Shown piece by piece: positions 2,484-53,877 of a stretch of 64,000 nt of DNA (position 1 is its first letter; every line of letters starts with the position of its first letter). A program made the translations under genes and the position numbers. Below the pieces are notes generated by a model that saw nothing but the letters and a program-made list of their open reading frames with translations, did not search any database and had not been told where the DNA came from. The stretch comes from Closterium sp. NIES-65 (taxonomy: Eukaryota; Streptophyta; Zygnematophyceae; Desmidiales; Closteriaceae): assembly GCA_948144175.1 (NCBI GenBank), contig CANXME010002131.1:372001-436000 (forward strand). The letters are read 5' to 3'.

Positions 2484-5400
2484 CTCGCCGCGGCGCCTCC
2501 CCTGCACACCAGCTCCACCCGCATGGCCTTGCACACCAGCTCCACCCGCATGGCCTTGCACACCAGCTCCACCCGCATGGCCTTGCACACCAGCTCCACC
2601 CGCATGGCCTTGCACACCAGCTCCACCCGCATGGCCTTGCACACCAGCTCCACCCGCATGGCCTTGCACACCAGCTCCACCCGCATGGCCTTGCACACCA
2701 GCTCCACCCGCATGGCCTTGCACACCAGCTCCACCCGCATGGCCTTGCACACCAGCTCCACCCGCATGGCCTTGCACACCAGCTCCACCCGCATGGCCTT
2801 GCACACCAGCTCCACCCGCATGGCCTTGCACACCAGCTCCACCCGCATGGCCTTGCACACCAGCTCCACCCGCATGGCCTTGCACACCAGCTCCACCCGC
2901 ATGGCCTTGCACACCAGCTCCACCCGCATGGCCTTGCACACCAGCTCCACCCGCATGGCCTTGCACACCAGCTCCACCCGCATGGCCTTGCACACCAGCT
3001 CCACCCGCATGGCCTTGCACACCAGCTCCACCCGCATGGCCTTGCACACCAGCTCCACCCGCATGGCCTTGCACACCAGCTCCACCCGCATGGCCTTGCA
3101 CACCAGCTCCACCCGCATGGCCTTGCACACCAGCTCCACCCGCATGGCCTTGCACACCAGCTCCACCCGCATGGCCTTGCACACCAGCTCCACCCGCATG
3201 GCCTTGCACACCAGCTCCACCCGCATGGCCTTGCACACCAGCTCCACCCGCATGGCCTTGCACACCAGCTCCACCCGCATGGCCTTGCACACCAGCTCCA
3301 CCCGCATGGCCTTGCACACCAGCTCCACCCGCATGGCCTTGCACACCAGCTCCACCCGCATGGCCTTGCACACCAGCTCCACCCGCATGGCCTTGCACAC
3401 CAGCTCCACCCGCATGGCCTTGCACACCAGCTCCACCCGCATGGCCTTGCACACCAGCTCCACCCGCATGGCCTTGCACACCAGCTCCACCCGCATGGCC
3501 TTGCACACCAGCTCAGCTCCACCCGCATGGCCTTGCACACCAGCTCCACCCGCATGGCCTTGCACACCAGCTCCACCCGCATGGCCTTGCACACCAGCTC
3601 CACCCGCATGGCCTTGCACACCAGCTCCACCCGCATGGCCCTGCACACCAGCTCCACCCGCATGGCCTTGCACACCAGCTCCACCCGCATGGCCTTGCAC
3701 ACCAGCTCCACCCGCATGGCCTTGCACACCAGCTCCACCCGCATGGCCTTGCACACCAGCTCCACCCGCATGGCCTTGCACACCAGCTCCACCCGCATGG
3801 CCTTGCACACCAGCTCCACCCGCATGGCCTTGCACACCAGCTCCACCCGCATGGCCTTGCACACCAGCTCCACCCGCATGGCCTTGCACACCAGCTCCAC
3901 CCGCATGGCCTTGCACACCAGCTCCACCCGCATGGCCTTGCACACCAGCTCCACCCGCATGGCCTTGCACACCAGCTCCACCCGCATGGCCTTGCACACC
4001 AGCTCCACCCGCATGGCCTTGCACACCAGCTCCACCCGCATGGCCTTGCACACCAGCTCCACCCGCATGGCCTTGCACACCAGCTCCACCCGCATGGCCT
4101 TGCACACCAGCTCCACCCGCATGGCCTTGCACACCAGCTCCACCCGCATGGCCTTGCACACCAGCTCCACCCGCATGGCCTTGCACACCAGCTCCACCCG
4201 CATGGCCTTGCACACCAGCTCCACCCGCATGGCCTTGCACACCAGCTCCACCCGCATGGCCTTGCACACCAGCTCCACCCGCATGGCCTTGCACACCAGC
4301 TCCACCCGCATGGCCTTGCACACCAGCTCCACCCGCATGGCCTTGCACACCAGCTCCACCCGCATGGCCTTGCACACCAGCTCCACCCGCATGGCCTTGC
4401 ACACCAGCTCCACCCGCATGGCCTTGCACACCAGCTCCACCCGCATGGCCTTGCACACCAGCTCCACCCGCATGGCCTTGCACACCAGCTCCACCCGCAT
4501 GGCCTTGCACACCAGCTCCACCCGCATGGCCTTGCACACCAGCTCCACCCGCATGGCCTTGCACACCAGCTCCACCCGCATGGCCTTGCACACCAGCTCC
4601 ACCCGCATGGCCTTGCACACCAGCTCCACCCGCATGGCCTTGCACACCAGCTCCACCCGCATGGCCTTGCACACCAGCTCCACCCGCATGGCCTTGCACA
4701 CCAGCTCCACCCGCATGGCCTTGCACACCAGCTCCACCCGCATGGCCTTGCACACCAGCTCCACCCGCATGGCCTTGCACACCAGCTCCACCCGCATGGC
4801 CTTGCACACCAGCTCCACCCGCATGGCCTTGCACACCAGCTCCACCCGCATGGCCTTGCACACCAGCTCCACCCGCATGGCCTTGCACACCAGCTCCACC
4901 CGCATGGCCTTGCACACCAGCTCCACCCGCATGGCCTTGCACACCAGCTCCACCCGCATGGCCTTGCACACCAGCTCCACCCGCATGGCCTTGCACACCA
5001 GCTCCACCCGCATGGCCTTGCACACCAGCTCCACCCGCATGGCCTTGCACACCAGCTCCACCCGCATGGCCTTGCACACCAGCTCCACCCGCATGGCCTT
5101 GCACACCAGCTCCACCCGCATGGCCTTGCACACCAGCTCCACCCGCATGGCCTTGCACACCAGCTCCACCCGCATGGCCTTGCACACCAGCTCCACCCGC
5201 ATGGCCTTGCACACCAGCTCCACCCGCATGGCCTTGCACACCAGCTCCACCCGCATGGCCTTGCACACCAGCTCCACCCGCATGGCCTTGCACACCAGCT
5301 CCACCCGCATGGCCTTGCACACCAGCTCCACCCGCATGGCCTTGCACACCAGCTCCACCCGCATGGCCTTGCACACCAGCTCCACCCGCATGGCCTTGCA

Positions 5401-5676
5401 CACCAGCTCCACCCGCATGGCCTTGCACACCAGCTCCACCCGCATGGCCTTGCACACCAGCTCCACCCGCATGGCCTTGCACACCAGCTCCACCCGCATG
5501 GCCTTGCACACCAGCTCCACCCGCATGGCCTTGCACACCAGCTCCACCCGCATGGCCTTGCACACCAGCTCCACCCGCATGGCCTTGCACACCAGCTCCA
5601 CCCGCATGGCCTTGCACACCAGCTCCACCCGCATGGCCTTGCACACGAGCTCCTCCATCTCCTCCTCGCTCACCGC
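2484..5676 (-). CDS. Candidate coiled-coil exon of the TBC host gene, expanded by the 27-bp array
   Basis: On the minus strand a CCAG acceptor at 5677-5680 is followed by codons AVSEEEMEELVCKAMRVELV, which run straight into the minisatellite and repeat its 9-residue peptide. At the far end the sequence leaves the array and meets a GTGAGC donor-like site (2482-2483). A Glu/Leu-rich segment after a TBC domain would fit the coiled-coil tail of RABGAP1/EVI5-type proteins; that assignment is inference. The 5-bp insertion near 3511 shifts the frame, so translation through the whole array would change peptide (to ARPCGWSWC-type repeats) about two thirds of the way along. It could also be an intronic array that captured the exon end. 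Confidence 0.4.
2505..5646. repeat. 27-bp minisatellite, about 116 near-perfect copies
   Basis: The unit (CACACCAGCTCCACCCGCAT plus GGCCTTG) repeats for 3.1 kb. I saw only two clear differences: a 5-bp insertion near 3511 (AGCTC doubled) and a T-to-C change near 3640. Because 27 is divisible by three, the array stays open in several frames on both strands. On the minus strand it reads (CKAMRVELV)n. The near identity indicates recent expansion, or an assembly limited by read length. Confidence 0.97.
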
Positions 5677-7267: not shown

Positions 7268-7826
7268 GGCATGGCCCGGCGTCGGCTAGCATAGCATGGC
7301 ATGACATGGCATGGCGTGGCATGGCATAGCGTGGGCCGCGGCATGGCATAGCCTGGCATGGCATAGCGTGGCATAGAATGGCGTGGCATGGCATAGTGTG
7401 GCATGGCATAGCGTGGCATGGCATAGCGTGGCATGGCATAGAGTGGCATGGCATAGCATGGCATGGCATAGCGTGGCATGGCATAGAGTGGCATGGCATA
7501 GCATGGCATGGCATAGCGTGGCATGGCATAGCAGGGCATGGCATAGAGTGGCATGGCATAGCGTGGCATGGCATAGCGTGGCATGGCATAGTGTGGCACA
7601 TGGCATAACGTGGCATGACATAGAGTGGCATGGCATAACATGGCATGGCATAGCGTGGCATGGCATAGTGTGGCACATGGCATAACGTGGCATGACATAG
7701 AGTGGCATGGCATAACATGGCATGGCATAGCGTGGCATGGCATAGCGTGGCATGGCATAGCGTGGTATGGCATAGCGTGGCATGGCATAGCGTGGCATGG
7801 CATAGCGTGGCATGGCATAGCGTGGC
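7268..7826. repeat. 15-bp ATGGCATAGCGTGGC minisatellite
   Basis: About 37 units of (ATGGCATAGCGTGGC), with variants AGAGTGGC, AACATGGC and AGTGTGGC, and one larger duplicated block (around 7597-7640 and 7670-7712). It directly follows (minus sense) the donor of the TBC exon ending at 7843. Confidence 0.95.
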
Positions 7827-7842
7827 ATTGGGTGTGTCATAC

Positions 7843-8290
7843 GGGTTTGATGTCGAGGTGTTCGAAGAAGGCACGCACGCGTGGCAGAGTGTGGATGAGT
7901 GGTGGGTGAGCTGGTACATGCGCACTTGCAGCTGGGTGAGCTGGTACATGCGCACTTGCAGCTGGGTGAGCTGGTACATGCGCACTTGCAGCTGGGTGAG
8001 CTGGTACATGCGCACTTGCAGCTGGGTGAGCTGGTACATGCGCAATTGCAGCTGGGTGAGCTGGTACATGCGCACTTGCAGCTGGGTGAGCTGGTACATG
8101 CGCACTTGCAGCTGGGTGAGCTGGTACATGCGCACTTGCAGGTGGGTGAGCTGGTACATGCGCACTTGCAGGTGGGTGAGCTGATACATGCGCACTTGCA
8201 GGTGGGTGAGCTGGTACATGCGCACTTGCAGGTGGGTGAGCTGGTACATGCGCACTGCAGGTGGGTGAGCTGGTACATGCGCACTTGCAG
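7843..8290 (-). CDS. TBC-domain (RabGAP) exon expanded by a 30-bp array
   Basis: TBC proteins activate GTP hydrolysis by Rab GTPases at membranes. On the minus strand a CACAG acceptor (8291-8292) opens an exon reading LQVRMYQLTH. This 10-residue unit repeats about 13 times, and then the sequence encodes TLPRVRAFFEHLDIKPV before a GTATGA donor-like site. In RABGAP1-type TBC domains a segment of the form F-Y-Q-L-x-x-L followed by LPxxxxHFxxxxI lies about 40 residues after the GYCQG motif, and these two pieces match that order. The array has replaced the linker between them, and a one- or two-base shift separates the repeat frame from the PRVRAFF frame, so this copy may not be translatable. Partner exons: 18276-18305 and 34173-34271. 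Confidence 0.55.
7900..8290. repeat. 30-bp minisatellite in an exon, about 13 copies
   Basis: The unit GCTGGGTGAGCTGGTACATG plus CGCACTTGCA shows scattered C/G and A/C changes; one unit near 8255 lacks a T. The minus strand encodes LQVRMYQLT(Q/H) per unit, so the array preserves reading frame apart from that deletion. Confidence 0.95.
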
Positions 8291-8319
8291 CTGTGTGTGT
8301 GGGGGCTACAGGGGCACAC

Positions 8320-8472
8320 ATCGTCAATCATACGAACGGGCATTCACACGAACGGGCATTCACACAAACGGGCATTCACACATAGGGGAAGTCACACACA
8401 CGGGCATTCACAGGCATTCTCACACATGAATGCACATGACATATGCAAGCACATGCACATTGATATAAACGC
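8320..8472. repeat. Degenerate ACGGGCATTCACAC repeats and CA-rich tract
   Basis: Four or five 14-bp units around 8335-8415 precede, and grade into, CACATGCACA-type sequence before the long 14-bp array. No coding signal. Confidence 0.7.
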
Positions 8473-9615
8473 ATGCACACATGGTGATGCACACACGGTG
8501 ATGCACACACGGGGATGCACACATGGTGATGCACACACGGTGATGCACACACTGTGATGCACACACGGTGATGCACACACGGGGATGCACATACGGGGAT
8601 GCACACACGGTGATGCACACACGGGGATGCACACACGGTGATGCACACCCGGGATGCACACACGGGGATGCACACACGGGGATGCACACACGGTGATGCA
8701 CACACGGGGATGCACACACGGTGATGCACACACGGTGATGCACACACGATGATGCACACACGGTGATGCACACACGGTGATGCACACACGGTGATGCACA
8801 CACGGTGATGCACACACCGTGATGCACACACGGTGATGCACACACGGTGATGCATACACGGTGATGCACACACGTTGATGCACACACGGTGATGCACACA
8901 CGGTGATGCACACACGGGGATGCACACACGGGGATGCACACACGGATGCACACACTGATGCACACACGGATGCACACACGGTGATGAACACACGGTGATG
9001 CACACACGGGGATGCACACACGGGGATGCACACACGGGGATGCACACACGGGGATGCACACACGGGGATGCGCACACGGGGATGCGCACACGGGGATGCG
9101 CACACGGGGATGCGCACACGGGGATGCGCACACGGGGATGCGCACACGGGGATGCGCACACGGGGATGCGCACACAGGCGTGCACACACGGGGGTGCACA
9201 CACGGGGGTGCACACACGGGGGTGCACACACGGGGGTGCACACACGGTGATGCACACACTCGGATGCACACACGGTGATGCACACACGGGGATGCACACA
9301 CGGTGATGCACACACGGGGATGCACACACGGGGATGCACACACGGTGATGCACACATGGTGATGCACACACGGTGATGCACACACGGTTCTGCACAAACA
9401 GTGATGCACACACGGTGATGCATACACGGTGATGCACACACGGTGATGCACACACGGTGATGCACACACGGGGATGCACACACGGGGATGCACACACGGT
9501 GATGCACATACGGGGATGCACACACGGTGATGGACAAACGGTGATGCACACACGGTGATGCACGCACGGGGATGCACCCACGGGGATGCACGCACGGGGA
9601 TGCACGTACGGAGAT
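8473..9615. repeat. 14-bp GATGCACACACGGT minisatellite
   Basis: About 80 units over 1.14 kb, with GGGG/GGTG variants and a sub-block of GATGCGCACACGGG units (9060-9175). All minus-strand frames through it are long but are only repeat translations. The same motif resumes at 17589-17645 on the far side of the gypsy element, so the element inserted into this array. Confidence 0.95.
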
Positions 9616-9619
9616 GCAC

Positions 9620-10260
9620 TGTCGTGGTATTATGTAGACCATGGAGGGCAACATTATGCCGAGACAGCAGCTGTGGCATAAGGCGTGTGCATGACAAATC
9701 AGTGAGATGAGTTTCATTGGGGCAAGTGTAAGCGGAACAAGGAGCAGCAGACGAACGGGCTGCGGTGTACATATTTTGTACCATAGCGAGGACGAGCCTT
9801 GAGCAAGTGAATGTCGGGAGAGGGTTTTGGGGGGGGGGTTTGCGTGTTTTCTTTGTATGAATGCTATTCTGTGCTGTGGCAGGGCGAGCGCTGCTAACGA
9901 GGATACGAGCAGCACGGCCGACAGGTGGCGAGGGCTGCAAGTGCACATGCGAGACAACCGGGCAGCTGGCACAGTTTCTGGTGCCAAACCACATGCAGCC
10001 CCAAACCGCCAGCGGCTTGTACATACGACTCGGGAAGCCCGAGCCTCGCTCACGCATGATCTTTGTCTGTCCTTTCCGCTGAAGCACTAGGCTAGGGCAG
10101 TCAATCTCATCTTGTACATAGAGCTACTGAGCCCTAGTGCTAGGTGCTTCGTCGTATGTTTCCTGCTTTTTCTCAATGTAAACCTTTTAAACCAACACGG
10201 GTAGAATCAAGAATACCAGGAGCCAGCTAGTCGGCCTAGATGGGTTAGTGAGGTTTTCTG
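9620..10260 (+). repeat. 5' LTR body of the gypsy element
   Basis: 641 bp matching 16767-17406 at about 98 percent by eye. It starts TGTCGTGG and homology ends at GGTTTTCTG. Unlike the 3' copy it is not followed by the 178-bp tail but by ACATACGACGAAGG, and no TGG-type primer binding site is evident just after it. Confidence 0.9.
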
Positions 10261-10357
10261 ACATACGACGAAGGAAATCTCACCACAAGATAGGACGCAT
10301 CGGTGAATGCAGCTACGCTCTGGAAGATGATACGAATTGCCTCCGGATCCGCCGGTG

Positions 10358-11002
10358 ATGGCGACTCCAGGATGGCGAGCAGGAGACGCGGTGGGAGAGA
10401 CCGTCGGCACGCAAGCAGGAGGATCTGGAGGCGCGCCGACGAGAGAAGCGTACACGGCGCCGCATCGGAGGCACAGCATGAGTGACCTGCCGACCGGGGG
10501 GCTTGACGCCTTTCACAGCTCGTCCGGTAGACCCCTCGCAGAAGTGGGTGAGACCGTTGAGCCGCCGCGGAGCGGAGATGCCGCACAAGGCACGAGTGCG
10601 GAAGGCGAGCTGCTCCGACAGACCAGGAGATTCTCCCTGTCAGAACATCACAACACCGAGGTCATGCGCCCGCCTGTGCGGTATGCGGCGCTGCCAAAGA
10701 TCGAGGTGCCGGAACGGTTTGCAGGCACTCCGGGCGTGGGAAGCAGCCTTAAGAACTACATGATGCAGATCCGCAACGCGCAATACCGCTGGATGAAGGA
10801 TGGGCTGGAGCCCGAAGACTTTTTCCGAGGACTTTCAAACACGGTCACGGGAGAAGCGGAGACGGCGTACGGCATGGAATTGGAGCGCATGCTCAGCGAA
10901 TCGGCAGCTGGGGTCACGTGGGAAGTGGTGACGCAGTTCTTCGCGACGCTTTGCCGACACTTCCCAGTGCAGACACCTGAGCGGATGAAAGAGTTCGCAT
11001 AA
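10358..11002 (+). CDS. gag: gypsy gag, N-terminal part, ending at an in-frame TAA
   Basis: Starts at the ATG encoding MATPGWRAGD; the frame is open slightly further upstream without another ATG. Residues rich in Ser/Gly/Pro precede a retrotransposon-gag-like region (PKIEVPERFAG ... NYMMQIRNAQYRWM ... WEVVTQFFATLCRHF). The frame stops with TAA at 11000-11002 and continues immediately with FRKKPGESLLATYGRL, the conserved gag segment that usually follows without interruption. The stop is therefore probably an inactivating point mutation; programmed read-through cannot be excluded. Confidence 0.85.
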   Translation: MATPGWRAGDAVGETVGTQAGGSGGAPTREAYTAPHRRHSMSDLPTGGLDAFHSSSGRPLAEVGETVEPPRSGDAAQGTSAEGELLRQTRRFSLSEHHNTEVMRPPVRYAALPKIEVPERFAGTPGVGSSLKNYMMQIRNAQYRWMKDGLEPEDFFRGLSNTVTGEAETAYGMELERMLSESAAGVTWEVVTQFFATLCRHFPVQTPERMKEFA

Positions 11003-13573
11003 TTTCGGAAGAAGCCTGGAGAGTCCTTGCTGGCAACCTATGGCCGACTGCGGGAGCTAGCCTCAGACATGGAGTGTCGCGACGAATGGAGGCTCGTGAC
11101 GAAATTCCTAAACAGCTTGGACGAAAGGGTGGCAAGTGAAGTACGAGGGAGAGTCTTCGAGATGGGACCGGCGGCCACACTGGAACACGCGTACGAGCTG
11201 GCCAAGAAGCAAGAGATGGGTCTGCGGCTGTACGAAATGGAGAGGGGAGGGATGCAACCGGAGGAGCGGCGCAGGCCCGCGTGGTCGGCCGTTTCAACGG
11301 GGGAAATTCCCGGCAGGAGGACGGGGCGCGAGACCGAGACGCGCAAGTGTCACCGGTGTGGCCAGGAGGGGCATCTGCAGAGGGACTCCAGCAGGCCACC
11401 GAAGTGCGATCACTGCCAAGAGGAGGGACACCTCCGCCGAGACTGCCCCGAAATCCCTAGCTGCGGGAACCGCGGGAGACGCGGGCATCGCACACAGGAT
11501 TGCTACAGTCGCCGGCCCGGCTCGGCAGGACCGAGGAGCAAGGAAGTTCTGGAGAATCCGCTTCAGCAGCTACAGGTAAGGATTCGAGAGCTGGAGGGCG
11601 GTGCACGGAGAGAGCCGGCTATGCTCGCGAAGGAAGAAGAGGGAGAAGGGAGCGAAGCCGAGTTCGTGCTGATGGTGCAAGCACCGCGACAGAGGGAGGA
11701 GATCCGGCTCCGCAGCGATGGGCAGGGACGCGCAGATCGGCCAGACCGAGTCATAAGAAGGTTCCGGGGTTACGCGGCAGAACCAGAGCAGGAGATGACG
11801 TCTGAACGACACCCAAAGGAAAGGATGGTTTGTCAGCCGTCGGTACTGACCATAGAGAAGGGAGGCATCACGGTGGGCGAGCTAGCTGTGGCGCAAGCCA
11901 TCATCGACACCGGAGCAAACCATATCCTGCTTGGGAAAGACCTGGCCAAAAGGCTCGAGCTGGATCATCCGAACAGGCTCATAACGAGAGGCATACTGGT
12001 AATGACGGCAGAAGGCGGAGAGCCGAAATGGATGCCGTGCACGCGCATGCCGGTGGAAGTGATCCTTCGGCCAGGATCGAAAGACGAATGCCGAATCCGG
12101 ATGCGCTGCGGGATCTCGCCCTCAGAAGATTACGATCTGCTCATCGGCATGGAGCTGCTGTACCGTATCGGCGCCACCATCTGCACCTGGCAGGAGAAAG
12201 TGTTATACCGTGCGCAGTACTGGCGAGATGACGGTCCGGTGGGTACTCTGCCGGTGCACTTCGTGAAAAGAGAGCCCCGAGGAGCCTTCCAAGCCCGCAT
12301 GGCAGAGATGGACGAGCAACTAGAGGACTGGTCCTGGAGGCAGTACGTGCTGGAGCAGGAGACTCGAAGGGCAGAGGCAGAGAATGCAGAGAGGCCCCTC
12401 GCTCTGCCTCCACGGATGACGGATCTGGAGAGGCTACAGAAGCCCCTAACCATCGTGGAATTGTTCCGAGGCGTCGGGACCGGACTGGCGGCGGCGCTCA
12501 AGGCAGGGTGCAGAGTGAAGAAATGGGTGCTCGTGGAACTCGACCCAGTGGTGAGGCGCATGGCCATGCACCACGCGAAGAGGCTGAGAGGAATCTACCC
12601 CACGCAAATGATGGCAGGAGTGGAGGCGGAAGCTGAGGAAGATATGACACACGACATCAGGGAGGTGGCGCCGGAGGATGTGAAGCGATGGGGGACAGTA
12701 GACCTTCTGGTGGCCGAGTGGGAATGCCAAGGGGTCTCGAGAGCCGGAAAGGGCAAGGGGCTGGATGACCCCAGGTCAACCTTGTTTTTGGAGCTGCTGT
12801 GGGTGATGAAGCTGGTCTATCAGCAGCACGGAGAGTACCTGTACATCCTAGAGAATCCCGACTTCTCCACGGACTGCAGGGAGCCAGTGCGACGCATGCA
12901 GGATGTGGTGGCAGCTGCACTGGGGCCAGGGGTGGCATGGGACGCGGTCCAGCAAAAATCTTACTCACACCGAGTGAGACGCTACTGGCAAAACGGGGTG
13001 TCGGAAGGAAAGCTGAGGTGGGAGCTCATACAAACTGAGAGGCCAGCGCCGCGCCCGCTGGAAGACATCCTGGAACCTCACCGCCTGGCAGCCCCCGTGC
13101 TCAAGCCGGACCACCCCAGTCAGTTCCAGTGTAACGAGCCAGGGCTACCTCGAGAAGCGTGGCCTACGTTGGTGGCACGCCCAGAGGCACATGGATTCAT
13201 CTGGAGCAAGGGTCTGCCAGGGCCCGGGATGGTGTATGACCGCATGAAGGATCTATGGGAGGAGCCGACGGTAAGGGAACGTGAGCTGGCGATGGGCTTT
13301 CTCCCAGACGCAACAGCAGCCGCAGGGGTGGGAGAGACGCCGAGGCGTGAAGCCCTGGGGAGGGCAATGGATGCGGAGGCAATGCACTGGCTGGTGCATG
13401 TGATTCAGATGCATTTGGCATCCAAGCAGTTGGAAATGGAGGCAGAAGTGGGTGGCACAGGGGGCGACACAGAGGAGAAGGTGGGTGCCAGCCAGCGCAG
13501 GGCAGAGCAGATCCTGTCGGAACTTCAGATGGAGCGGCCACAGCGGAGGAGCCCTCGCAGCAGACGCGGCTAG
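11003..13573 (+). CDS. gypsy gag C-terminus, CCHC knuckles, aspartic protease and C5-methyltransferase
   Basis: Same frame as gag. Three CCHC-type motifs lie at 11348-11503: the second (CDHCQEEGHLRRDC) is intact, while the first lacks its last Cys and the third lacks its second. The retropepsin signature IIDTGANHILLG has its DTGA at 11906-11917, followed by DYDLLIGMELLYRIGA, typical of gypsy proteases. From 12443 to about 13420 follows a C5-methyltransferase domain, described separately. The frame ends with TAG at 13571-13573. The polymerase continues in another frame that overlaps from 13452, so a frameshift is needed to make one polyprotein. Whether that shift is programmed or a mutation is unknown. 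Confidence 0.85.
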   Translation, partial: FRKKPGESLLATYGRLRELASDMECRDEWRLVTKFLNSLDERVASEVRGRVFEMGPAATLEHAYELAKKQEMGLRLYEMERGGMQPEERRRPAWSAVSTGEIPGRRTGRETETRKCHRCGQEGHLQRDSSRPPKCDHCQEEGHLRRDCPEIPSCGNRGRRGHRTQDCYSRRPGSAGPRSKEVLENPLQQLQVRIRELEGGARREPAMLAKEEEGEGSEAEFVLMVQAPRQREEIRLRSDGQGRADRPDRVIRRFRGYAAEPEQEMTSERHPKERMVCQPSVLTIEKGGITVGELAVAQAIIDTGANHILLGKDLAKRLELDHPNRLITRGILVMTAEGGEPKWMPCTRMPVEVILRPGSKDECRIRMRCGISPSEDYDLLIGMELLYRIGATICTWQEKVLYRAQYWRDDGPVGTLPVHFVKREPRGAFQARMAEMDEQLEDWSWRQYVLEQETRRAEAENAERPLALPPRMTDLERLQKPLTIVELFRGVGTGLAAALKAGCRVKKWVLVELDPVVRRMAMHHAKRLRGIYPTQMMAGVEAEAEEDMTHDIREVAPEDVKRWGTVDLLVAEWECQGVSRAGKGKGLDDPRSTLFLELLWVMKLVYQQHGEYLYILENPDFSTDCREPVRRMQDVVAAALGPGVAWDAVQQKSYSHRVRRYWQNGVSEGKLRWELIQTERPAPRPLEDILEPHRLAAPVLKPDHPSQFQCNEPGLPREAWPTLVARPEAHGFIWSKGLPGPGMVYDRMKDLWEEPTVRERELAMGFLPDATAAAGVGETPRREALGRAMDAEAMHWLVHVIQMHLASKQLEMEAEVGGTGGDTEEKVGASQRRAEQILSELQMERPQRRSPRSRRG
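12443..13420 (+). other. DNA cytosine-5 methyltransferase domain inside the gypsy polyprotein
   Basis: Motifs appear in canonical C5-MTase order. Motif I is VELFRGVGTGLAAAL (Phe at 12464). Motif II is VLVELDP. Motif IV is EWECQGVSRAGKGKGLDD with the catalytic Cys at 12725-12727. Motif VI is ILENPD (Glu at 12851). Motif VIII is SHRVRRYW, IX is VRERELAMGF, and X is ALGRAMDAEAMHW. The acidic-loop wording (FRGVGTG, SRAGKGKGL) looks closer to DNMT3-like enzymes than to DNMT1. The Pro that normally precedes the catalytic Cys is Glu here. No chromodomain or other reader domain is visible. The domain of about 325 residues is uninterrupted by stops, unlike gag and RT. Role is inferred: methylating element or host DNA, or regulating silencing. 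Confidence 0.88.
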
Positions 13574-16559
13574 CAGCGGAGGAGCCCTCGCAGGAGAAAG
13601 CTGGACCGAACCACCAGAAGAAGAGATGCAGCAAGGAACGGCAGGAGAAGAACCAGCGGCGGAGGGAGCAACCAGGAGGGCGCAGGCTGAGACATCCGAA
13701 GCGGCCAGGAAGGAAATAGCGCGGGGACCAGAGCACAACCCTATCCCAGCCGAAGCACCGAGAGAGCGGCAGATGGAGCAAGAGGTACACTGGGAGGTGG
13801 ACGAAGGCCTCACGGGGGAGCTGAAGGAGCAGATGAGGGTGGTACTGAAAGAAAACAGACAGGCATTTGCTTTCACCCTACTTGAGCTAGGCAAGTACAG
13901 GGGAGGAGAGATGGAGATAAGGCTGACGGAAGAGATACCGGTGTACCAGCGCAAGCCGAGGATGAGCCCGAGGGATTTGGAGGTGTGCATGGAGAAGTGC
14001 CGTGAGCTACTGGAGGCGGGCCTCATCAGGCCCTCAGAGTGAGAGTACGCAGCCGCAACCGTGGTGGCGGCAAGGAAGGAGCTCACCGGAGGAATCCTGT
14101 CGCGCCGGATGTGTGGAGACTATCGAGACCTCAACAAACTGACCGTGGCCAACCGCTACCCCATGCCGACGCCAGAAGAAATCTTTGACAAGCTGCAGGG
14201 GGCACTGGTGTTCAGCACGCTAGATCTTCGACAGGGCTTTAACCAGATACGCATTGCGGAGGCTGACGTGAAGGAAACCGCATTCCACGGGCCAGATGGG
14301 TTGTACGAATGGCTCTTCATGCCATTCGGCCTGAAGAACGCCTCTGCAGTCTTCCAGAAAGCCATGGACCGGGTGCTGAGGAATTTGCAGCACTGCGCAG
14401 CCTGTTATATCGATGACGTGGTGGTGTACAGCTCATCCGCGGAGGAGCACGTAAAGGACGTCGGGCAGGTGCTTGAGGTGATCAAAGCAGCAGGACTAAC
14501 CTGCCACCCCAAAAAGTGCAGGTTCGGGACACTGACGGTGCAATACCTCGGGTTTGAGGTGTGCAGAGGGCAGATGACGATCCAGCAGGCGAAGGTGGCA
14601 GTGCTAGACAAGCTGGCGGTGCCCGAGAGCCGGACGGCGCTCAGGGCCATCCTGAGCTTTCTGAACTACTACCGCAAATTCGTGCCCAACTTCAGCAAGC
14701 GGGCCGCCAGCTTGAATCAGCTCTTAAGGGAAGATGTGGCGTGGAAATGGGGGGCAACGGAGCAGGGGGCATTACAGGATCTGCTGGACGCGGTAAAGTC
14801 AGGGCCTGTGCTGCTGCTGCCGAAACCAGAGGGTAGGTTCACTCTCTACTTGGACTGGAGCAGCGCAGGCATGGGGGCAGTGCTCTGCGAGCAAGGGGAG
14901 GAAGGAGAAAGGGTGGTGGCGTTCGCCAGCCGCAGCTGCAACGCGGCAGAAGCAAACTACAGCTCTTACAAAGGCGAGGGGCTAGCGGCGGTGTGGGTAG
15001 TGACGCATTTCCGAGTCTACCTGCAAGGACGCGAGTTCACACTGGTTACTGACCACCAGCCCCTTCTATGGCTCATGACCAACCACACCCTGACCGGGCG
15101 GAATGCACGATGGGCAATGAGGCTCCAGGAGTCCGACTTCGTGGTCAAACAGAGGCCAGGCCGTACGCTGCAGCACGTCGACGGGCTGTCTCGCAACCCT
15201 CCACCCGCAGAGCCGGTGGCGAGCCTGGTGGCGTTGACGAGAGAGGCAGAGAGGCAAGGGGAGCGCCAGGAGGAGCAGCGGGGGGCGCCAGACATCTGGC
15301 TGGACGAGGAGACGCTCAGGTGGCTCAGAGGGGAGACCAAAGCGGAAGAACCAGCCTCAGAGAGAGCACGAGCACGAGGGCAGCACTACAGGTGGTACGC
15401 GGGGCAGGTCCAGCTGAGAACGAGGGAGGGATGGAAGCTAGTTCCGCCGCCAGCAGAGCGCGAGGGCATCATTCGCCGAGTGCATCAGCAGTTGGGCCAC
15501 TTCGGGCATGTCAGGACTACCCAGCTGGTCAACACAGGGTGGTGGTGGGCAGGCATGGCGCGGCAGATTCGGGAGCATGTGGGGCAGTGTGAGGCTTGTG
15601 ACCGCAACCGAGCCCAGCTGGAGCGCAGCCAGCAGCAGCTGCAATCCCTACCCATCCGCGGACTAGGATACAGATGGTCCCTCGACATGGCGGGGGAGCT
15701 ACCCTTGAGCCGCCGTGGCAAGAAGTACATACTGGTAATGATCGAGCACGTCAGCAAGTGGGTGGAGGTACGGGCCCTCAGCAGTAAGAGCGCGGCCCTG
15801 GTGACAGAGGCGTTCACAGAGCAGGTCCTCACTCGGATGGGAGCATGTGGGGAGGTGCTCACCGATCAAGGCACAGAGTTCCGCGGAGAATTCGACAGAG
15901 CCTTGACCGCAATTGGGATCACGAGTCGCAGGACCTCCCGCTACCATCCTCAGGCTGACGGGCTCACCAAACGGATGGTGCAGACCCTCAAGCGCGGCCT
16001 GAGGGCATATGGGGAGGCCCACCGGCGCACATGGGACGAGGATCTGCACTGGGTGGCGGCTGGGTACCGTTTCAGCAAGCAAGCGGCACTACGAGACGCC
16101 TCCCCCTATTACCTGTTGTATGGGCGGGAGCCCATACTGCCAGTGGGAGCTCCAAGGGTGCTCACTGACGTCGTGACAGCAGGTGCACCCGAGCTGTGGG
16201 CCGCTCTGGCGAAGGTGCGAGGGGACTATCTGCGGGCACTCCTGCCATCGGCCATGGAAAATCTCCACGTGGCACAGCTGCGCGATGCACACAGGTACCA
16301 GGAGCGGTTGGGGGGACAACGCACGCCCGGGGCAGAGCAGTTGCAGCAGGGGCAAGAGGTGTATCGTCGCACGGCGTGGCAGACTGTCCTGGACCGCGGT
16401 CTCAGCGAAGAACGGTGGAAGGTGGTGGAAGCCAAGGAGTCTGGAGTCGTAGTGCTGGAGAATCAGCAAGGGCGACGGGTCAGGGATCACGCCACGAACA
16501 CCGCCCGAGCTCGCACCAGGAGCTCTGGAAGTCTGGAGCTGGGCATGCAGGAGCCGTAG
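13452..16559 (+). CDS. pol: gypsy reverse transcriptase, RNase H and integrase
   Basis: The frame is open from 13452, with a single TGA at 14040-14042 just after EAGLIRPSE, where gypsy RTs normally continue. RT motifs follow: CGDYRDLNKLT, LDLRQGFNQI, FMPFGLKNA, and the catalytic YIDD at 14406-14417. RNase H begins near LYLDWSSAGMGAVL and includes TDHQPLLWL. The integrase has an H-H-C-C zinc motif (VHQQLGHFGH ... CEACD) and catalytic Asp at 15684 and 15864. The third catalytic position (YHPQADGLTKRM) is Lys, codon AAA at 15969-15971, instead of Glu. No chromodomain is evident in the C-terminal tail. The frame ends with TAG at 16557-16559, and a purine-rich tract lies at 16568-16583. Confidence 0.92.
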
Positions 16560-16586
16560 CCAGCTCCAGAGGGGGCAAGTGAGTGG

Positions 16587-16764
16587 CCATGCTGGATCAA
16601 GCAGAGCCCCGCACAAGGAGGCAAGGCAAGCATGAGCCAGAAGAGGGGCAGAGAAAGCATCAGCACCGTGTCCAGAACAGACAGGAGCACTGCAGAGCAA
16701 CAGAGCAAGATGAGCATGGCAGAGTGGGTAACAGAGAGGCAGGGGAGCCAAGAGATTTCCGACA
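16587..16764 (+). repeat. 178-bp tail, copy 1, before the 3' LTR body
   Basis: Nearly identical to 17411-17588 (two or three differences). It begins just after the purine-rich tract AGAGGGGGCAAGTGAG and ends CGACA. Its junction with the LTR body (16760-16771) is the perfect palindrome CGACAGCTGTCG. Confidence 0.9.
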
Positions 16765-16766
16765 GC

Positions 16767-17406
16767 TGTCGCGGTATTATGTAGACCATGGAGGGCAACA
16801 TTATGCCGAGACAGCAGCTGTGGCTTTAGGCGTGTGCATGACAAATCAGTGAGATGGGTTTCATTGGGGCAAGTGTAAGCGGAACAAGGAGCAGCACACG
16901 AACGGGCTGCGGTGTACATATTTTGTACCATAGCGAGGACGAGCCTTGAGCAAGTGAATGTCGGGAGAGGGTTTTGGGGGGGGTTTTGCGTGTTTTCTTT
17001 GTATGAATGCTATTCTGTGCTGTGGCAGGGCGAGCGCTGCTAACGAGGATACGAGCAGCACGGCCGACAGGTGGCGAGGGCTGCAAGTGCACATGCGAGA
17101 AAACCGGGCAGCTGGCACAGTTTCTGGTGCCAAACCACATGCAGCCCCAAACCGCCAGCGGCTTGTACATACGACTCGGGAAGCCCGAGCCTCGCTCACG
17201 CATGATCTCTGTCTGTCCTTTCCGCTGAAGCACTAGGCTAGGGCAGTCAATCTCATCTTGTACATAGAGCTACTGAGCCCTAGTGCTAGGTGCTTCGTTG
17301 TATGTTTCCTGCTTTTTCTCAATGTAATCCTTTTAAACCAACACGGGTAGAATCAAGAATAGCAGGAGCCAGCTAGTCGGCCTAGATGGGTTAGTGAGGT
17401 TTTCTG
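16767..17406 (+). repeat. 3' LTR body of the gypsy element
   Basis: 640 bp matching 9620-10260. Starts TGTCGCGG; homology ends at GGTTTTCTG, after which GATG joins it to the second copy of the 178-bp tail. Confidence 0.9.
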
Positions 17407-17410
17407 GATG

Positions 17411-17588
17411 CCATGCTGGATCAAGCAGAGCCCCGAACAAGGAGGCAAGGCAAGCATGAGCCAGAAGAGGGGCAGAGAAAGCATCAGCACCGTGTCCAGA
17501 ACAGACAGGAGCACTGCAGAGCAACAGAGCAAGACGAGCATGGCAGAGTGGGTAACAGAGAGGCAGGGGAGCCAAGAGATTTCCGACA
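17411..17588 (+). repeat. 178-bp tail, copy 2, at the right end of the element
   Basis: Copy of 16587-16764. It ends CGACA and is followed by GCAC and the 14-bp minisatellite. Together with the start TGTCG at 9620 this gives inverted termini and a 4-bp TSD, which suggests the true LTR may be body plus tail (16767-17588, 822 bp). Confidence 0.85.
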
Positions 17589-17660
17589 GCACGCACGATG
17601 ATGCACGCACGGTGATGCACACACGGTGATGCACACACGGTGATACACACTGCTGAAGGT

Positions 17661-18305: not shown

Positions 18306-18349
18306 CTGGTGGGCGCCATGGGCAGGGGAGGGGCGCCCCGGTTGTAGCG

Positions 18350-18849
18350 ATGAGCAGCATCTCGTCGCCGTCGCCCTGTAGCTGCACTCCGCTCTCCTTC
18401 AGTTGGCCAGCTAACAACAGGTTCGCCTGTACGCCCGGAACATAGAGCACGTCGGAGATGAGGACCTGCTTCCCGGCCTCCCTTGCAAAGCGACGGTTCC
18501 GCGACCCTCGAAAGGCTGCAATGCCCCGTTGAACCCACGCACGTACTTCACCCCATAGCTCGGCCCCATGTCGACGAAGACCGACTTCGTCCCCATCAGG
18601 TGGTGGGAGCACCTGCTGTCGAGCAGCACCGCCATCGGGTTGGCCTGCACACCTGGAATGGCTTGGTGTGACGTATCTGGCTGCTCCCCAACGCTTGCCC
18701 AAGTAGGAGGTAGCCTTGTGCGCTCTTCCGCACCAACGGGCTCTTCTCCGGGTCGTTTTCGGGGCACTTCTCTGTTCCTTCCATCACCTCCAGCAGGTCA
18801 TAGTGGTCAAATACGTTCTCCATTCTGAAGGACCACTCAGCAAAGTTAT
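18350..18849 (-). pseudogene. Copia gag/protease fragment of element A
   Basis: Minus-strand codons give NFAEWSFRMENVFDHYDLLE, EGTEKCPENDPE and SAQGYLLLGQAL, a copia gag N-terminus almost identical to that of element E (45650-45920). After KPFQ the sequence jumps to NPMAVLLDSRCSHHLMGTK, a copia protease like that of element B. The protease triad DSG is DSR here. The rest of gag, including the zinc knuckle, is missing. Frameshifts separate the pieces. It looks like a deletion or a recombinant between two families. Confidence 0.8.
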
Positions 18850-19920
18850 TGCGGGGAGTCACTCTACAACGGTAGTGAGCTAGACTATGGGGGTTGGCAC
18901 GAACTACTAGAGGTGATCCTAGCTTTGCTTGGTTCCTTAGTGCTTGCACATTCACGGGAGAAATCGGCAAGAGTTTTCACTAGCCAAAGTCGAAATTACA
19001 GAACTGATTGAACAAGCAATGTCAGAATGACTACATCCGGCACGTAGCAACCCTGCAGCTAGCCTGGTCGACCGCTAGCACAGCTCGGTCGACCGCCTGC
19101 CAGCGTTGCGTAGAGGGGCCGCGCCAGCACTGCGGAAAGGCGACCTGCCAACAGAGCAGGTCGACGGCGTGCCAACGCTGCAGCAGAGCGGCTGTCCAGC
19201 GTTGCCCCGTAGAACACAGCAGTGCGCACGCTCGCAGGTGCGCGCAGACAATTGGCCCGACTTGCCTCGTTGGGCATCTGTCGGCTGTTGTCTGCGCCTG
19301 ACGAGCCACATCGACTTCTGGATACCAGCCGGCAGTCGCCTTCGCCATCGCGACCTCGACGACGTTCGCGTGCCTCCGCAGAACTCGTCGAGTAGGTTGC
19401 CCGGTCGACCCGGACGACCACCAGGTGCTTCCGGTCGACCACCACTGCTTCTGGTCGACCCCCAGGTCCCTATGGTCGACCACAACTCCCGTCGAGCTAC
19501 CCCCTGGTCGACGGACCCCTTCCGTCGACCAGAACCGTCAGCGGTTGTCGCCGAGCTCCCCTCGTCGACTTCTGCTCACTTGTCAGGTCGACGGACTCCT
19601 CAGTCGACCTCCCGGTCGAACTGTAGGTCGACGGGATGCTCCGGAGACCTCCAGCTCGAACGGCAGGTCGACGGGATGCTTCGGAGACGTCCTGGTCGAG
19701 CTGTAGGTCCTGGTCGACGTCCCACCTGTCGCCCAGACCAGTTTGTTTCAGCTGTCAAGCTTCCTGGTCGACAGCAACACCACAGCGGTCCCCTGCAGCT
19801 CGACAAAGTCTGTCGAGCAGCTCTCCCACTGTGAACGGTCGGCTGCTACTCCTGTACATCCGACCAAGTCGTCGTCGTTGCCCAAGCGAGGGCGGGCCCA
19901 ACACTCCATTCCTGTGAACA
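18850..19920 (-). repeat. LTR of copia element A (5', 1071 bp)
   Basis: Inverted copy of 38055-39125, with identical length. In its own sense it starts TGTTCACAGGAATGG and ends CTCCCCGCA (TG...CA). The interior (19380-19720) is crowded with GTCGAC hexamers. It is joined at 19920 to element B pol. Confidence 0.88.
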
Positions 19921-22900
19921 GAATCAAGCCTCGTAAGGAGAAGCAGTCGACCAAGTCGACCTCGACAAAGGACGCCGACTCTTTTGCTGGCGGCAAGGGG
20001 CGAGACAGCAAGGAGGCGTCGTGCTCGCTGGTCGGGGTCGTGGAGCCGACAGTCTTGTTGGCGCCGGAAGCCAGCGAGGACTTCCAGGCGATGGCGGCAG
20101 CTGTGCAGGGGAACCCGGCAGTAGTCCTGCTCGACAGCGGCTGCTGGCATCACCTGATGGGGACGAAGGAGGTCTTCGTCAACCTGTAGCCGAGCGGCGA
20201 CATCAAGCACGTGTGCGACTTCAATGGGGCGCTACAGGACGTCCAGGGCTGCGGCACTGTCGTTCTGCAAGGGGAGGCCGGGAAGCAGGTCCTTATCCCT
20301 GACGTGCTCTACGTCCCGGGCGTGCGAGCGAACCTGTTTTCGGCCGACTAGCTGAAGGAGAACGGCGTGAAACTGCAGGAGGACGGCAACGAGATGTTGC
20401 TCGTCTCGGCGGTGGGCGACGTCCTTGGTCGGGTGTCCTACACCAGCCGAGTCCTTTGCACTGACCTGCGCCCCTGCTCGACGAAATCGACATCGCCAAC
20501 CACGGAGGTCGTGGCCCTGTGGGCGATAGTCTCGGCGACAAAGTCGACCGCGGACAGGCTGCACGCGAGGCTTGCGCATGTATGCATGGACACCATACGA
20601 AGCTCGGTGAAGCACGAGATCGCCACTGGGCTAGACCTCAAGTCGGCGTTGGGCGCCGACTCGCCGTGTATCTCGTGCATCGGCGGGAAGCTGACACAAC
20701 ACACCTTCCCCGACCAAGGCTCCGACGCTGACGACGTGCTGGCCGCTGTGCACATAGACCTATGCGGGCCATTCCGAGTGGCTGCCAAGGATAGCAGCCT
20801 GTACTTCTTATTGCTGAACGATTGCAAGATCCGCTATATGTGGGTGAGGCCGGTCGCCAAGAAGTCGGATGCGCTGCAGGAGTTTGTGCAATGGCTGGCG
20901 GTGGCTGAGCGACACACAAAGAAATCGGTGTTGATGCCGCGCTCTGATTGAGGAGGGGAGTTCCTCTGGAAGCAGTTCACCGACTTCGTGAACGGAAAGG
21001 GGATCGTTCACGACCTGACCTGCCTGTACACCCCGCAGCAGAACGGCATGGCGGAGCGAAAGATGAGAACGGTGGTGGAGTTGGTGTTGATGATGCTGCT
21101 GCACATGGGCGTGCTGCACATGGATGATGCTAGTGGCACCTCGCTCTGCGGCAGGCCGTCTGGGTCCGCAACTGCCTGGAGAGGTCGACGCTGTTGCCAG
21201 GGACGACGCCATACCTGCTGCTGACTGGGAAGAAGCCCGACTTGTCGCTGGCACGAGTGTGGAGCTGCATGGCGCAGTTCCTCGTCCCCGAGTAGCAGCG
21301 ACGTGGGAAGCTAAAGCCGAAGGCCAGGTGGGGCCTTCACCTCGGCGTGTCAGAGGAGAGCAAGGGCTGGGAGCTCCTCAACATTGTTGACAACAGGGTG
21401 GTCACCACGTCGGACGTGGGGTTTTACAAGGACATGTCACTAGAGGTGTAGAAGTCAGAGCACGAGCCGGCGTCGGGACGGACACCTCGACGGCGACACT
21501 CCCTCTACTCGCCAAGGTCTGTGATCCTGCTCTTGAGGACGTCAAGGATGACCCCTCCCCTTCCCCTCCTGCTCCTCCCCTGATGGCCGACCTGCGTGGG
21601 CTGACTCCGGTGTCGGCCTCCGGCGATGAGGGGAGAATTGAGGCATCGCCTGTGGCGCTGGCCAAGCGCATCGCCGGTGGCCGACGTGACGTCCAGGAAG
21701 TCAACGTGAGGCTGAAGTCGACGCCAGCAGGAGAAGAGCAGTCCGAGGTAAAGACAACAGTGGTGAAGTCGGCGTCATTGGCAGGGCAGCAGCCCACAGG
21801 GGTGCAGGCAGCATCGAAGCCGACCAAGGAGCAGTCGGCGACCGAGAAGTCGGCCGGGGAGCTGACTACAGGGGAGAAGTCCGCAGAGGTGCCGGCCGTG
21901 GTGCAGCAGGATGCTGAGGGCAGCGACGCCAGTGATGATGGAGAGGACGCCGGGGAGTCCACCAACAGCAACGTGGTGGAAGTCCCGTGTGGACCACGGC
22001 GTACAGGCCGGATTCGGGGGCCGCCTGACTTCTTCTTTCCTGCTGCCTTCACCACGGTGTACGACGTGGACGATGACGATCTGGCGTATGACGACGCTGA
22101 GGACGATGAGGACCTGCCAGAGCTGGACCTTGATATGCACGCAGATCCCGAGCACCGCTGGGATATTTCTACGATGACGGTGAAGGAGGCGCTGTCGAGC
22201 TGGAAGGGCCAGGCCGTGAAGGCCGCCATGGAGGAAGAGATCCGCAGCCTCATCAACATGGGCACGTGGGAGCTAGTCGAACGGGCGCCGGGGGTGATTA
22301 TCATGAAGAACCGGTGGGTGCTGACGACGAAGTACTGCATCGACGACACCGTCGAGCACGAGAAGGCGAGGCTGGTCGTGAAGGGCTTCACCCAGGTGTA
22401 TGGCGCCGACTACGACGAGAAGTATGCGCCAGTGAGCAGCTACGTCATGCTGAGGATCTTCCTCGGCATCGTCACCGTCCTCAACCTCAACTTGATGCAG
22501 CTCGACATGAAGCACGCCTTCCTACAGAGCAAGCTCGACCGGGTTGCTGTACATGTACCAACTAGACTACTTCAACGACAGAACCGGCCGGGTGTGCAAG
22601 CTGCTGAACAACCTTTACGGGCTGAAGCAGTCGCCGCTGCTATGGTACAAGGCTCTCAGCGACGTGCTGGTCAGCGCCAGCTGGAAGAAGAGCCAGGTCG
22701 ACACGGCCCTCTACTTCAAGGTCGGCAACAACAAGGTGGCCTGCTAGGTGCTGGTCTACGTCGATGACCAACTCGCCACCAGCAGTAGTGCCGAGATGCT
22801 GAAGGAGCTGAAGGAGCTGCTGGAGTCCGCCTTTGAGCTGCGTAAGATCTCGCCGGTTTAGAAGTACCTCGGGCTGGAAATCGTGCGTGACATGCTGGCG

Positions 22901-23801: not shown

Positions 23802-23896
23802 CGGCGTGCTGTGTGTTGGGTGCACGCCGACGAGCTATTCTCCGAGTGGTACTCCCGTGTTGGCTGGGGGGGCCAAGCGTGAACACCGCAGGGGAG

Positions 23897-25736: not shown

Positions 25737-25761
25737 AGTGAGTTGCTGCGCTCAAGCACAG

Positions 25762-37958: not shown

Positions 37959-38054
37959 TGGCGTGCTGTGTGTGGGGTGCACGCCGAGGACAAGTTTTCT
38001 CCGTGGAGTACTGCCGTGTGGGCTGGAGGCCCAAGCGTGAGCGCGGCAAGGGAG

Positions 38055-49467: not shown

Positions 49468-49845
49468 TAAGTATTCTCACTATCTTGAAGTGTACCCTTT
49501 TCGCGGACTTCGCGATCACTTGAAACTTGAAACCAAGGCTCTGGGTCTTCATCACAAACTCATACTTGAGTTCTTGATGGGTCTGCTGCACACACCTGCG
49601 ACACGCCGAACGTTCCACACACGACAAAATAGAAACCGCGCACGGAACACAAACGACCGCGTGACACGCGACTAGCGATAACTCGCTATTGACTCGACAC
49701 ACACATTCGACATCATGACTCAACATTCACACACTATTATAAACATGAAGTATATATTATCCCATGCCCTCATACCATTCCATGCACACACACATGCACG
49801 CACATGGACAACAAGCCGAGTGCAAACCGTTGGGTTGCACCAACA

Positions 49846-53862: not shown

Positions 53863-53877
53863 TCGCTGTGCTTGAGC

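Follow-up and report, generated by a model that had tools for sequence, protein, structure and literature searches.

A Ty3/gypsy element with a methyltransferase domain

The window, that is, the whole stretch of 64,000 nucleotides from Closterium sp. NIES-65 analysed here, contains a Ty3/gypsy element at 9620–17588, in which a methyltransferase (MTase) domain sits between the protease and the reverse transcriptase (RT). The features of this copy are the following:

9616–9619, no strand: left copy of the 4-bp target site duplication GCAC (right copy at 17589–17592)
9620–10260, forward strand: repeat A1, LTR-like, starting with TGTC; 98.1% identity with A2 across 642 aligned columns
10147–10159, forward strand: CTTCGTCGTATGT, presumed RNA 5' end priming reverse transcription; 13-nt perfect reverse complement of 10261–10273
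10261–10273, forward strand: presumed self-primed primer binding site right after A1, pairing with 10147–10159
10478–11002, forward strand: 5' part of gag, ended by an in-frame TAA at 11000–11002; the start resembles the relative P0013
11003–12259, forward strand: remainder of gag, including the zinc knuckles, followed by the aspartic protease with DTGA near 11906 (PF00098, PF13975)
12422–13435, forward strand: putative C5-cytosine DNA methyltransferase with WECQ as motif IV (PF00145, alignments, fold)
13404–13573, forward strand: overlap of two open reading frames, at the frame change between MTase and RT
14043–15210, forward strand: RT and RNase H (PF00078, E 7.7e-32; PF17917, E 3.6e-31)
15444–16430, forward strand: DDE-type integrase (PF17921, E 3.4e-14; PF00665, E 4e-11)
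16568–16575, forward strand: purine tract AGAGGGGG, presumed plus-strand primer, adjoining B1; a G-rich tract is found in the 22 compared copies
16576–16764, forward strand: repeat B1, ending with GACA; its presumed start follows the purine tract
16767–17406, forward strand: repeat A2; the palindrome GACAGCTGTC spans the B1-GC-A2 junction
17410–17588, forward strand: repeat B2, the right end of the element, without the first bases of B1

The domain order gag-PR-RT-RNaseH-INT, with an rve (DDE-type) integrase, is that of Ty3/gypsy elements. The zinc knuckles matched Pfam with E 1.5e-5, the protease, with its DTGA motif, was matched under the Pfam cut-off (E 0.001), and the YIDD of the RT lies at 14406. 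A Pfam search of four pieces of the window element returned no phage-type integrase or tyrosine recombinase at E 0.1 or less, and at the same threshold no chromodomain was found in this copy; some relatives carry a PHD finger. Unlike in standard Ty3/gypsy elements, the ends are not two identical simple LTRs but split direct repeats, as in DIRS elements. An ordinary LTR pair (9619–10260 and 16766–17406) was ruled out by the 181-bp B repeat (B1 and B2 are 98.9% identical over 181 columns, 16586–16766) and by the same layout in other copies. The junction between A2 and B2 holds GAT at 17407–17409. The GCAC duplication is weak by itself, the flank being a GCAC-rich minisatellite.

The window copy is dead. 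The Glu presumed to belong to the active site of the integrase is replaced in it, and its coding region is interrupted, unlike that of 10 of the 20 fetched copies, which have a single uninterrupted frame.

A predicted DNMT3-like fold with an altered motif IV

The first-pass annotation had placed a C5-MTase inside a Ty3/gypsy polyprotein, between protease and RT, and this was borne out by the gypsy domains listed above, by the profile search and by the predicted fold. In the profile search proposed there, the translated frame 11003–13573 matched PF00145 with 25.5 bits (E 1.1e-5), above the curated cut-off of 22 bits, and the MTase domain searched by itself reached 27.6 bits; the profile was matched by all ten members of our first alignment, the window copy among them. 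The predicted structure (pLDDT 90.8) has the C5-MTase fold across the whole domain, so that a chance match to PF00145, already above the cut-off, could be ruled out. The nearest solved folds to the model were DNMT3A and DNMT3B (PDB structure search, E 4e-17, TM 0.71/0.81), and a profile comparison with solved structures also placed the MTase family nearest to DNMT3. The segment is thereby confirmed as a C5-cytosine methyltransferase domain with a predicted DNMT3-like fold. With the catalytic domain of human DNMT3A/DNMT3B it shares this predicted fold, the motif order and the motif VIII type AHR-R-YW, but identity over the structural alignment is about 21% and the human enzymes have PCN where this domain has WECQ.

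Of the series of seven motifs between I and X that the first-pass annotation had also reported, motifs I, IV, VI, VIII, IX and X, named as in the C5-MTase literature, could be read in order on the alignments; motif IV had to be corrected to WECQ, in place of PCQ or PCN. The Pro of PCQ is near-invariant among known C5-MTases. In the window copy it is absent, with a Glu before the catalytic Cys, and across the family alignment it is present in only 5 of 62 readable rows (WPCQ), 53 rows having WECQ, while the catalytic Cys itself is kept in 62/62 readable rows and 21/21 genome copies. Judged from these alignments, WECQ is a trait of the MTase family and not of the window copy alone. With dozens of relatives having lost the Pro beside the catalytic Cys, the family offers a natural experiment on C5-MTase chemistry.

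From the sequence we infer that the MTase methylates DNA. A different role, in which the domain was retained for methylating RNA (the element's own transcript or primer) or only for binding nucleic acid, seems to us rather unlikely. The prevalence of WECQ over WPCQ may mean an altered chemistry, and RNA methylation has been raised for another element class by de Mendoza et al. 2018 (PMC5890265), but the domain still resembles DNMT3 in its fold and in motifs VI, VIII and X, and DNMT2-type enzymes score far lower (4h0n, E 0.0044).

As to its origin, derivation from a phage or bacterial MTase, and not from a eukaryotic Dnmt3, has some weight and yet appears doubtful to us. The phage family phrog_116 matches residues 6–336 with E 5e-18, 120 phage records match (with 23–29% identity among the 30 matches listed), and five phage MTases score 52–61 bits against the family profile, DNMT3B being similar at 52.6 bits; the structural comparison, on the other hand, favours DNMT3 over viral entries, the best of which reached E 9e-15 and TM 0.63/0.53. 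A tree that joined the family with two partial Dnmt3 sequences of mammals and six sequences from phages or bacteria allowed one topology only, with long branches, and so favours neither origin.

Copies, selection and descent

A one-off insertion, with the domain absent from all other copies, was ruled out by the copy count, also proposed in the first-pass annotation: scoring among 1435 candidates gave at least 107 matches in the same genome. Relatives of the MTase element were found in other Closterium strains and in environmental contigs, with two domain orders, namely the MTase between protease and RT or, in environmental relatives, after RNase H. The environmental relatives thus extend the trait to a second domain order. 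A scan of genome contigs gave one locus, L001, in which no A or B repeats were seen (its 5' end is cut), and a scan of viral contigs with A1, P0039 and P0047 confirmed no relative. Database proteins may be short of stretches owing to predicted introns. The protease motif is altered in two young copies (L025, L026).

The median dN/dS was 0.096 for the MTase and 0.101 for the RT over the five copy pairs fit for the test (L015–L016, L015–L034, L016–L031, L016–L032 and L031–L034), pairs that have copies in common and dS values between 0.16 and 0.2, the remaining pairs being saturated or too young; protease and integrase gave similar values, near 0.1. The MTase is under purifying selection, and on these ratios the constraint on it appears to be roughly as strong as that on the copying machinery. 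Its tree follows that of the RT, the two having descended together, and its motifs are conserved at 40–55% identity. That the MTase is a passenger, an old functionless capture, is therefore very improbable: several copies do have stops in it (three of the four near copies, L017, L018 and L020, and further matched rows), but this reading is largely refuted by the dN/dS values close to those of RT, protease and integrase, by the conserved motifs and by the joint descent with the RT. The near copies L017–L020 are 95–96% identical to the window copy, and against them its MTase has a dN/dS of 0.57–0.87, which we read as decay after insertion.

The first-pass annotation had noted stops in gag and RT beside an open MTase, and had seen in this a hint that the MTase was kept longest or lost constraint last. 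The stops are real, TAA at 11000–11002 in gag and TGA at 14040–14042 just ahead of the RT, but longest retention of the MTase is not supported: the frame of the MTase also holds the zinc knuckles and the protease, RT, RNase H and integrase all lie in the frame 14043–16559, open for 838 codons, the MTase is itself broken by stops in near copies, and comparisons between older copies show equal constraint on MTase and RT. What emerges is an MTase that has long belonged to a multicopy family and been kept there by selection, in an alga closely related to land plants.

Repeats, self-priming and target site duplications

Two layouts were observed, A-coding-B-A-B and the compact A-coding-B, with TGTC/GACA ends in both. 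The presumed RNA start can pair perfectly with the primer site in 12 of 13 copies, or 11 of 12 if the duplicate L030 is set aside, L017 having one mismatch, and the pairing covaries between subfamilies; no TGG-type site, as for a tRNA primer, was seen by eye right after A1. The element is presumed to be self-priming, the presumed RNA 5' end pairing with the site after A1.

Among 29 independent insertions for which both ends could be located, 25 have an exact 4-bp duplication. A scripted pass gave 8 matches; with altered ends allowed (L020, L030) the count was 11/12, or 10/11 without L030; later sets gave 3/3 by eye and 12/16, the last including L035, whose stretch offers no left end to compare. 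The inexact cases are L017 and L040 (3 of 4 bases each), L036 and L039. The duplication GCTG of L042 is ambiguous, as the B|A junction begins with the same four bases. Compact copies have exact duplications in L016, L038, L044, L049, L022 and L031, the compact L040 being among the inexact cases.

The junctions were compared in 22 of 41 stretches. L030 was dropped because it duplicates the window locus; L019, L024, L032 and L034 were left out with a repeat that is tandem, has other boundaries or falls outside the groups, while L022, L031, L043 and L052 were excluded for unrelated repeats of low complexity or low identity, and L015, L016, L021, L033, L037, L038, L040, L044, L047 and L049 for having no B-B repeat (in L033 it spans 47 bases only; L021 and L047 have the palindrome and lack B2, L015 has A2 and lacks B2). 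Among near-identical copies, the A2-B2 junction varied, gaining or losing a few bases and retaining the purine tract once (L050), while the B1-A2 junction was constant. The edit distances were inflated by register shifts (PPT-B1, 4.62), so the junction reading rests on the strings themselves. The F3 junction differences stem in part from divergence of the A end (L041, L046).

A variable A2-B2 against a constant B1-A2 junction suggests end-joined, circle-like cDNA before integration. The A-coding-B-A-B layout might instead have arisen by template switching during reverse transcription or by recombination of tandem copies, an origin that we think unlikely. Tandem arrangements do exist in L034 and L019, three F3 copies have a junction in common, as do both F5 copies, and A-B-A-coding-B, a further form to be expected if a circle with two repeats can be opened at either palindrome, occurred in 0 of 21 full-length stretches; differing A2-B2 junctions among near-identical copies, with the purine tract kept once, and compact copies with the same ends and duplications of their own, speak against such an origin.

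Known elements and a proposed mechanism

Retrotransposons with a C5-MTase have been reported from one charophyte and dinoflagellates (de Mendoza et al. 2018, PMC5890265), as the first-pass annotation had noted. KnitGypsy-Dnmt3 of Klebsormidium nitens, compared through its published description (no K. nitens protein turned up in our searches), is likewise a charophyte gypsy element with a Dnmt3-related MTase in its Pol polyprotein and DIRS-like repeats; according to the same text its MTase is under purifying selection (Ka/Ks below 0.2), as in Closterium, and gave no methylation in yeast, a result its authors call inconclusive. Features that may set the Closterium family apart from it are the at least 107 matches, WECQ, the presumed self-priming, the 4-bp duplications, the variable A2-B2 junction, the compact copies and an MTase placed either as protease-MTase-RT or, in environmental relatives, after RNase H. 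SymbioDIRS-Dnmt3 and SymbioLINE-Dnmt of Symbiodinium are also retrotransposons bearing a C5-MTase, and the former methylates CG de novo in yeast, but they are DIRS (tyrosine recombinase) and LINE elements, whereas that of Closterium is Ty3/gypsy (PMC5890265). PAT- and Ngaro-type elements (PMC4157794) share the A1-B1-A2-B2 split direct repeats but carry a tyrosine recombinase in place of a DDE-type integrase with target duplications; the DIRS order lacks the target site duplication that is exact in 25/29 Closterium insertions. In Tf1/sushi and Tcn1 the presumed RNA 5' end is also complementary to a site after the first repeat, but these are chromoviruses (PMC6317226), while the Closterium family has split repeats and no chromodomain listed in the window copy.

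According to PMC6338049, green algae and charophytes are among the groups in which gypsy or DIRS elements encode DAM and DCM enzymes, so MTase-bearing elements are not new as a trait. Our literature search found no paper on those of Closterium, and the accessible parts of PMC10407611, PMC12477816 and PMC9033089 hold nothing on such elements. What appears to differ from the known kind is the WECQ motif, the presumed self-priming with covariation, the two layouts with duplications and the variable A2-B2 junction.

Taken as a whole, we consider it moderately probable that this Closterium Ty3/gypsy family, with its DNMT3-like C5-MTase, methylates its cDNA before integration, primes itself and inserts with joined ends. 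The protease would free the MTase inside the same particle as the RT; the MTase would methylate the new cDNA de novo, and the new copy would then bear the host's own kind of mark. Reverse transcription would be primed by the RNA's own 5' end, paired with the site after A1. Its linear product, B-A-coding-B-A, would be joined end to end, or lose one repeat as in one-repeat circles, and the integrase would open a B|A palindrome and insert either layout, A-coding-B-A-B or the compact A-coding-B, duplicating 4 bp of the target. Against the proposed activity stand the Glu in place of the Pro of PCQ and the negative yeast result for KnitGypsy-Dnmt3, and against the proposed insertion route the lack of A-B-A-coding-B among the 21 full-length stretches and the 4 of 29 insertions without an exact duplication; the altered protease motif of L025 and L026 also weighs against the model. 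The substrate could instead be RNA or host DNA, and it is possible that self-methylation moderates silencing or toxicity, as the first-pass annotation had supposed. More tentatively, an old, recently active lineage might turn its self-primed B-A-coding-B-A product into a one- or two-repeat circle, which the WECQ MTase would mark and the DDE integrase would insert from the B|A palindrome, a circle route that our literature search did not find for such integrases.

The self-priming site, split repeats, variable A2-B2 junctions and compact copies make this a checkable model of movement for gypsy elements with DIRS-like repeats, and the question why a transposon would methylate DNA can be put to the test in an alga of which several strains have been sequenced. 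CpG transitions exceeded others 1.2–2.7-fold in six old copy pairs, with no excess in L024–L026 (0.7) and L027–L028 (0.6, with few changes); host methylation would produce an equal excess.

Selective Constraint on the Methyltransferase

Sequence comparisons indicate that the element, a Ty3/gypsy retrotransposon with a C5-cytosine methyltransferase (MTase) domain, belongs to the retrotransposon-MTase kind as a real member, under selection and present in many copies; its catalytic motif is a variant, its mode of movement is apparently unusual, and the biochemical function of the enzyme is putative. dN/dS was estimated by Nei-Gojobori counts on 21 copies, and 5 of the 210 pairs had dS values of 0.15–1.2 for both MTase and reverse transcriptase (RT). 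In these pairs, which are not independent as copies occur in more than one of them, the median dN/dS was 0.096 for the MTase, 0.101 for RT, 0.081 for integrase, 0.095 for protease and 0.064 for RNase H; that of gag was 0.066 (4 pairs). The MTases of the genomic copies L028 and L033 gave 0.05, at dS 1.5. Moreover, tree distances of MTase and RT were correlated (r = 0.825, n = 18), a value equalled in 0 of 2000 permutations. The low dN/dS, together with this correlation, shows that the MTase was inherited with RT and kept.

The MTase dN/dS of 0.57–0.87 between the window copy and L017–L020 reflects decay after insertion. The window copy is dead: its gag carries an in-frame stop, the frame changes from MTase to RT, a stop codon lies immediately upstream of RT and the integrase Glu is substituted. 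The locus L030 (C2194), 99.47% identical to the window locus across 10 kb, flanks included, is its duplicate rather than a second insertion.

Copies and Hosts

In the 874,075,685-base assembly of the same genome, where the window is C1833:372001–436000, 107 matches were scored among 1435 candidates, a lower bound in which fragments, copies in decay and a single duplicated locus are counted; by hand count of the table, 36 were at least 71% identical and 71 were at 51–57%. A frame of at least 2000 codons was given for 29 rows, which is an upper figure since the value for C2061 (L026) reads through a stop. A single uninterrupted frame of 1953–2178 codons was present in 10 of the 20 fetched copies, many of them picked because of long frames. 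Such a frame does not by itself establish that a copy works: in L025 and L026 the protease motif is altered. Named Closterium, a zygnematophyte, accounted for 22 of 22, 40 of 44 and 17 of 28 hits in three protein searches; the remainder include metagenomic ones.

Catalytic Motif and Relatives

Motif IV, which holds the catalytic Cys, was readable in 62 of 83 family rows and spelled WECQ in 53, WPCQ in 5, and WDCQ, WSCQ, WECK and WEC- in 1 each; WECQ occurred in 21 of 21 genome copies. To our knowledge, the Pro of PCQ is near-invariant among C5-MTases; PCQ or PCN was found in five phage enzymes, P0062 and DNMT3A/3B. All five WPCQ rows are environmental (L001, from a separate scan of genome contigs, and the related proteins P0065, P0066, P0071 and P0080), so that Pro may have been replaced by Glu inside the family.

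The MTase lies upstream of RT in the Closterium polyproteins, L001, P0065 and P0066, and the protease precedes it in L001, P0071 and P0072; it is downstream of RNase H in P0070, P0074, P0076, P0078 and P0080. Integrase and a PHD finger follow further on in P0070, P0073, P0074, P0078 and P0079. In these environmental relatives the PHD finger (PF00628) occupies the chromodomain position of chromoviruses, and is possibly a chromatin reader next to a DNA methylase. The contig of L001 is labelled as a Synechococcales cyanobacterium MAG, yet what it carries is a gypsy element whose gag-PR-MTase and RT-RH-INT-PHD-like frames share one register and are separated by a single stop; the label therefore probably reflects contamination with algal DNA.

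In the MTase tree, 41 retroelement MTases fell on one side of a branch (support 100/100) and the 27 Closterium rows formed one group (98/99); the other members were phage/bacterial enzymes and DNMT3 only, which makes the tree uninformative on the origin of the family. The gene model P0025 fuses a PF14223 domain, which we take to be a copia-type gag, to a family MTase, as a nested insertion or a swapped domain.

Repeats, Ends and Possible Mode of Movement

The window element contains two repeats, A and B, each present twice:
9620–10260, repeat A1
16576–16764, repeat B1 (presumed start)
16767–17406, repeat A2
17410–17588, repeat B2

In this A1-coding-B1-A2-B2 layout the A repeats are 98.1% and the B repeats 98.9% identical. 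The same layout is described in PMC5890265 for KnitGypsy-Dnmt3 of Klebsormidium nitens. A-coding-B-A-B with both repeats was found in 11 of 21 fully read stretches, window and duplicate counted. In nine fetched copies the A repeats were 99.6–100% identical to each other, so these insertions are recent. The termini are TGTC (left) and GACA (right), and an exact 4-bp target duplication flanked 25 of 29 independent insertions with both ends found (10/11, 3/3 and 12/15 by batch; in the third, 1 of 16, without left end, was left out). Seven further copies are compact, A-coding-B, terminating at B1 without A2 and B2: six had the exact 4-bp duplication (L016, L022, L031, L038, L044 and L049; for the last three, the right-hand sequence was already known when the left end was retrieved), and L040 had 3 of 4 bases.

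The sequence directly 3' of A1 is a perfect reverse complement (12–15 nt) of a site within A in 12 of 13 copies, or 11 of 12 without the duplicate L030; L017 has one mismatch. Shuffled segments gave a mean complement of about 7, with maxima of 9–14 (200 shuffles), and the pair exists in four versions that covary between subfamilies. A G-rich tract lies 5' of B1 in the 22 copies compared. From a priming site after A1 and this tract before B1, the expected linear product would be B-A-coding-B-A, of which the integrated A-coding-B-A-B is a permutation. The B1-A2 junction is invariant, GACAGCTGTC, in the 22 copies compared; the A2-B2 junction showed 3 versions in 4 copies of group F1, 4 in 5 of F2, 5 in 6 of F4, 3 in 5 of F3 and 1 in 2 of F5, and L050 retains the purine tract there.

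We infer that circle intermediates could explain both kinds of copy: opening a one-repeat circle at B|A would leave the compact A-coding-B copy, and opening a two-repeat circle the long A-coding-B-A-B copy. Under this model, compact copies could not yield a full transcript again. Counting against it, no A-B-A-coding-B copy was seen, though a two-repeat circle has two B|A palindromes.

Two further arrangements were observed. L034 (G000:C382) has two MTase copies 7088 bases apart with A and B repeats in common, a head-to-tail tandem of the sort expected from joined ends or from recombination. The right end of L019 has an additional repeat unit, 7571–8588 recurring at 8402–9419 (99.6%).

Possible Function of the Enzyme

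Judging from its position in the polyprotein, release by the protease would place the MTase in the same particle as RT, where it would most simply methylate new cDNA. CpG transitions were 1.2–2.7 times commoner than other transitions in six pairs drawn from the subfamily to which the window copy belongs; the excess was 2.1 in L025–L026 and 1.3 in L024–L025, and the ratio was 0.7 in L024–L026 and 0.6 in L027–L028 (few changes). Such an excess would equally be expected from host methylation. In yeast, according to PMC5890265, DIRS-borne enzymes gave CG methylation, and the result for the gypsy-borne enzyme was negative and inconclusive.

Surroundings in the Window

A minisatellite of GATGCACACACGGG-like units flanks the retrotransposon on both sides (about 8400–9615 and 17589–17640). 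In self-comparison, 2500–5656 is a long array of near-identical repeats offset by 54 bases (about 99.5% over 3 kb), and 18349–25740, 34640–39125 and 45568–63990 hold related repeats, at most 94% identical and in both orientations. The latter are likely Ty1/copia elements; frames near 18.4–19.0 kb look copia-like by eye.
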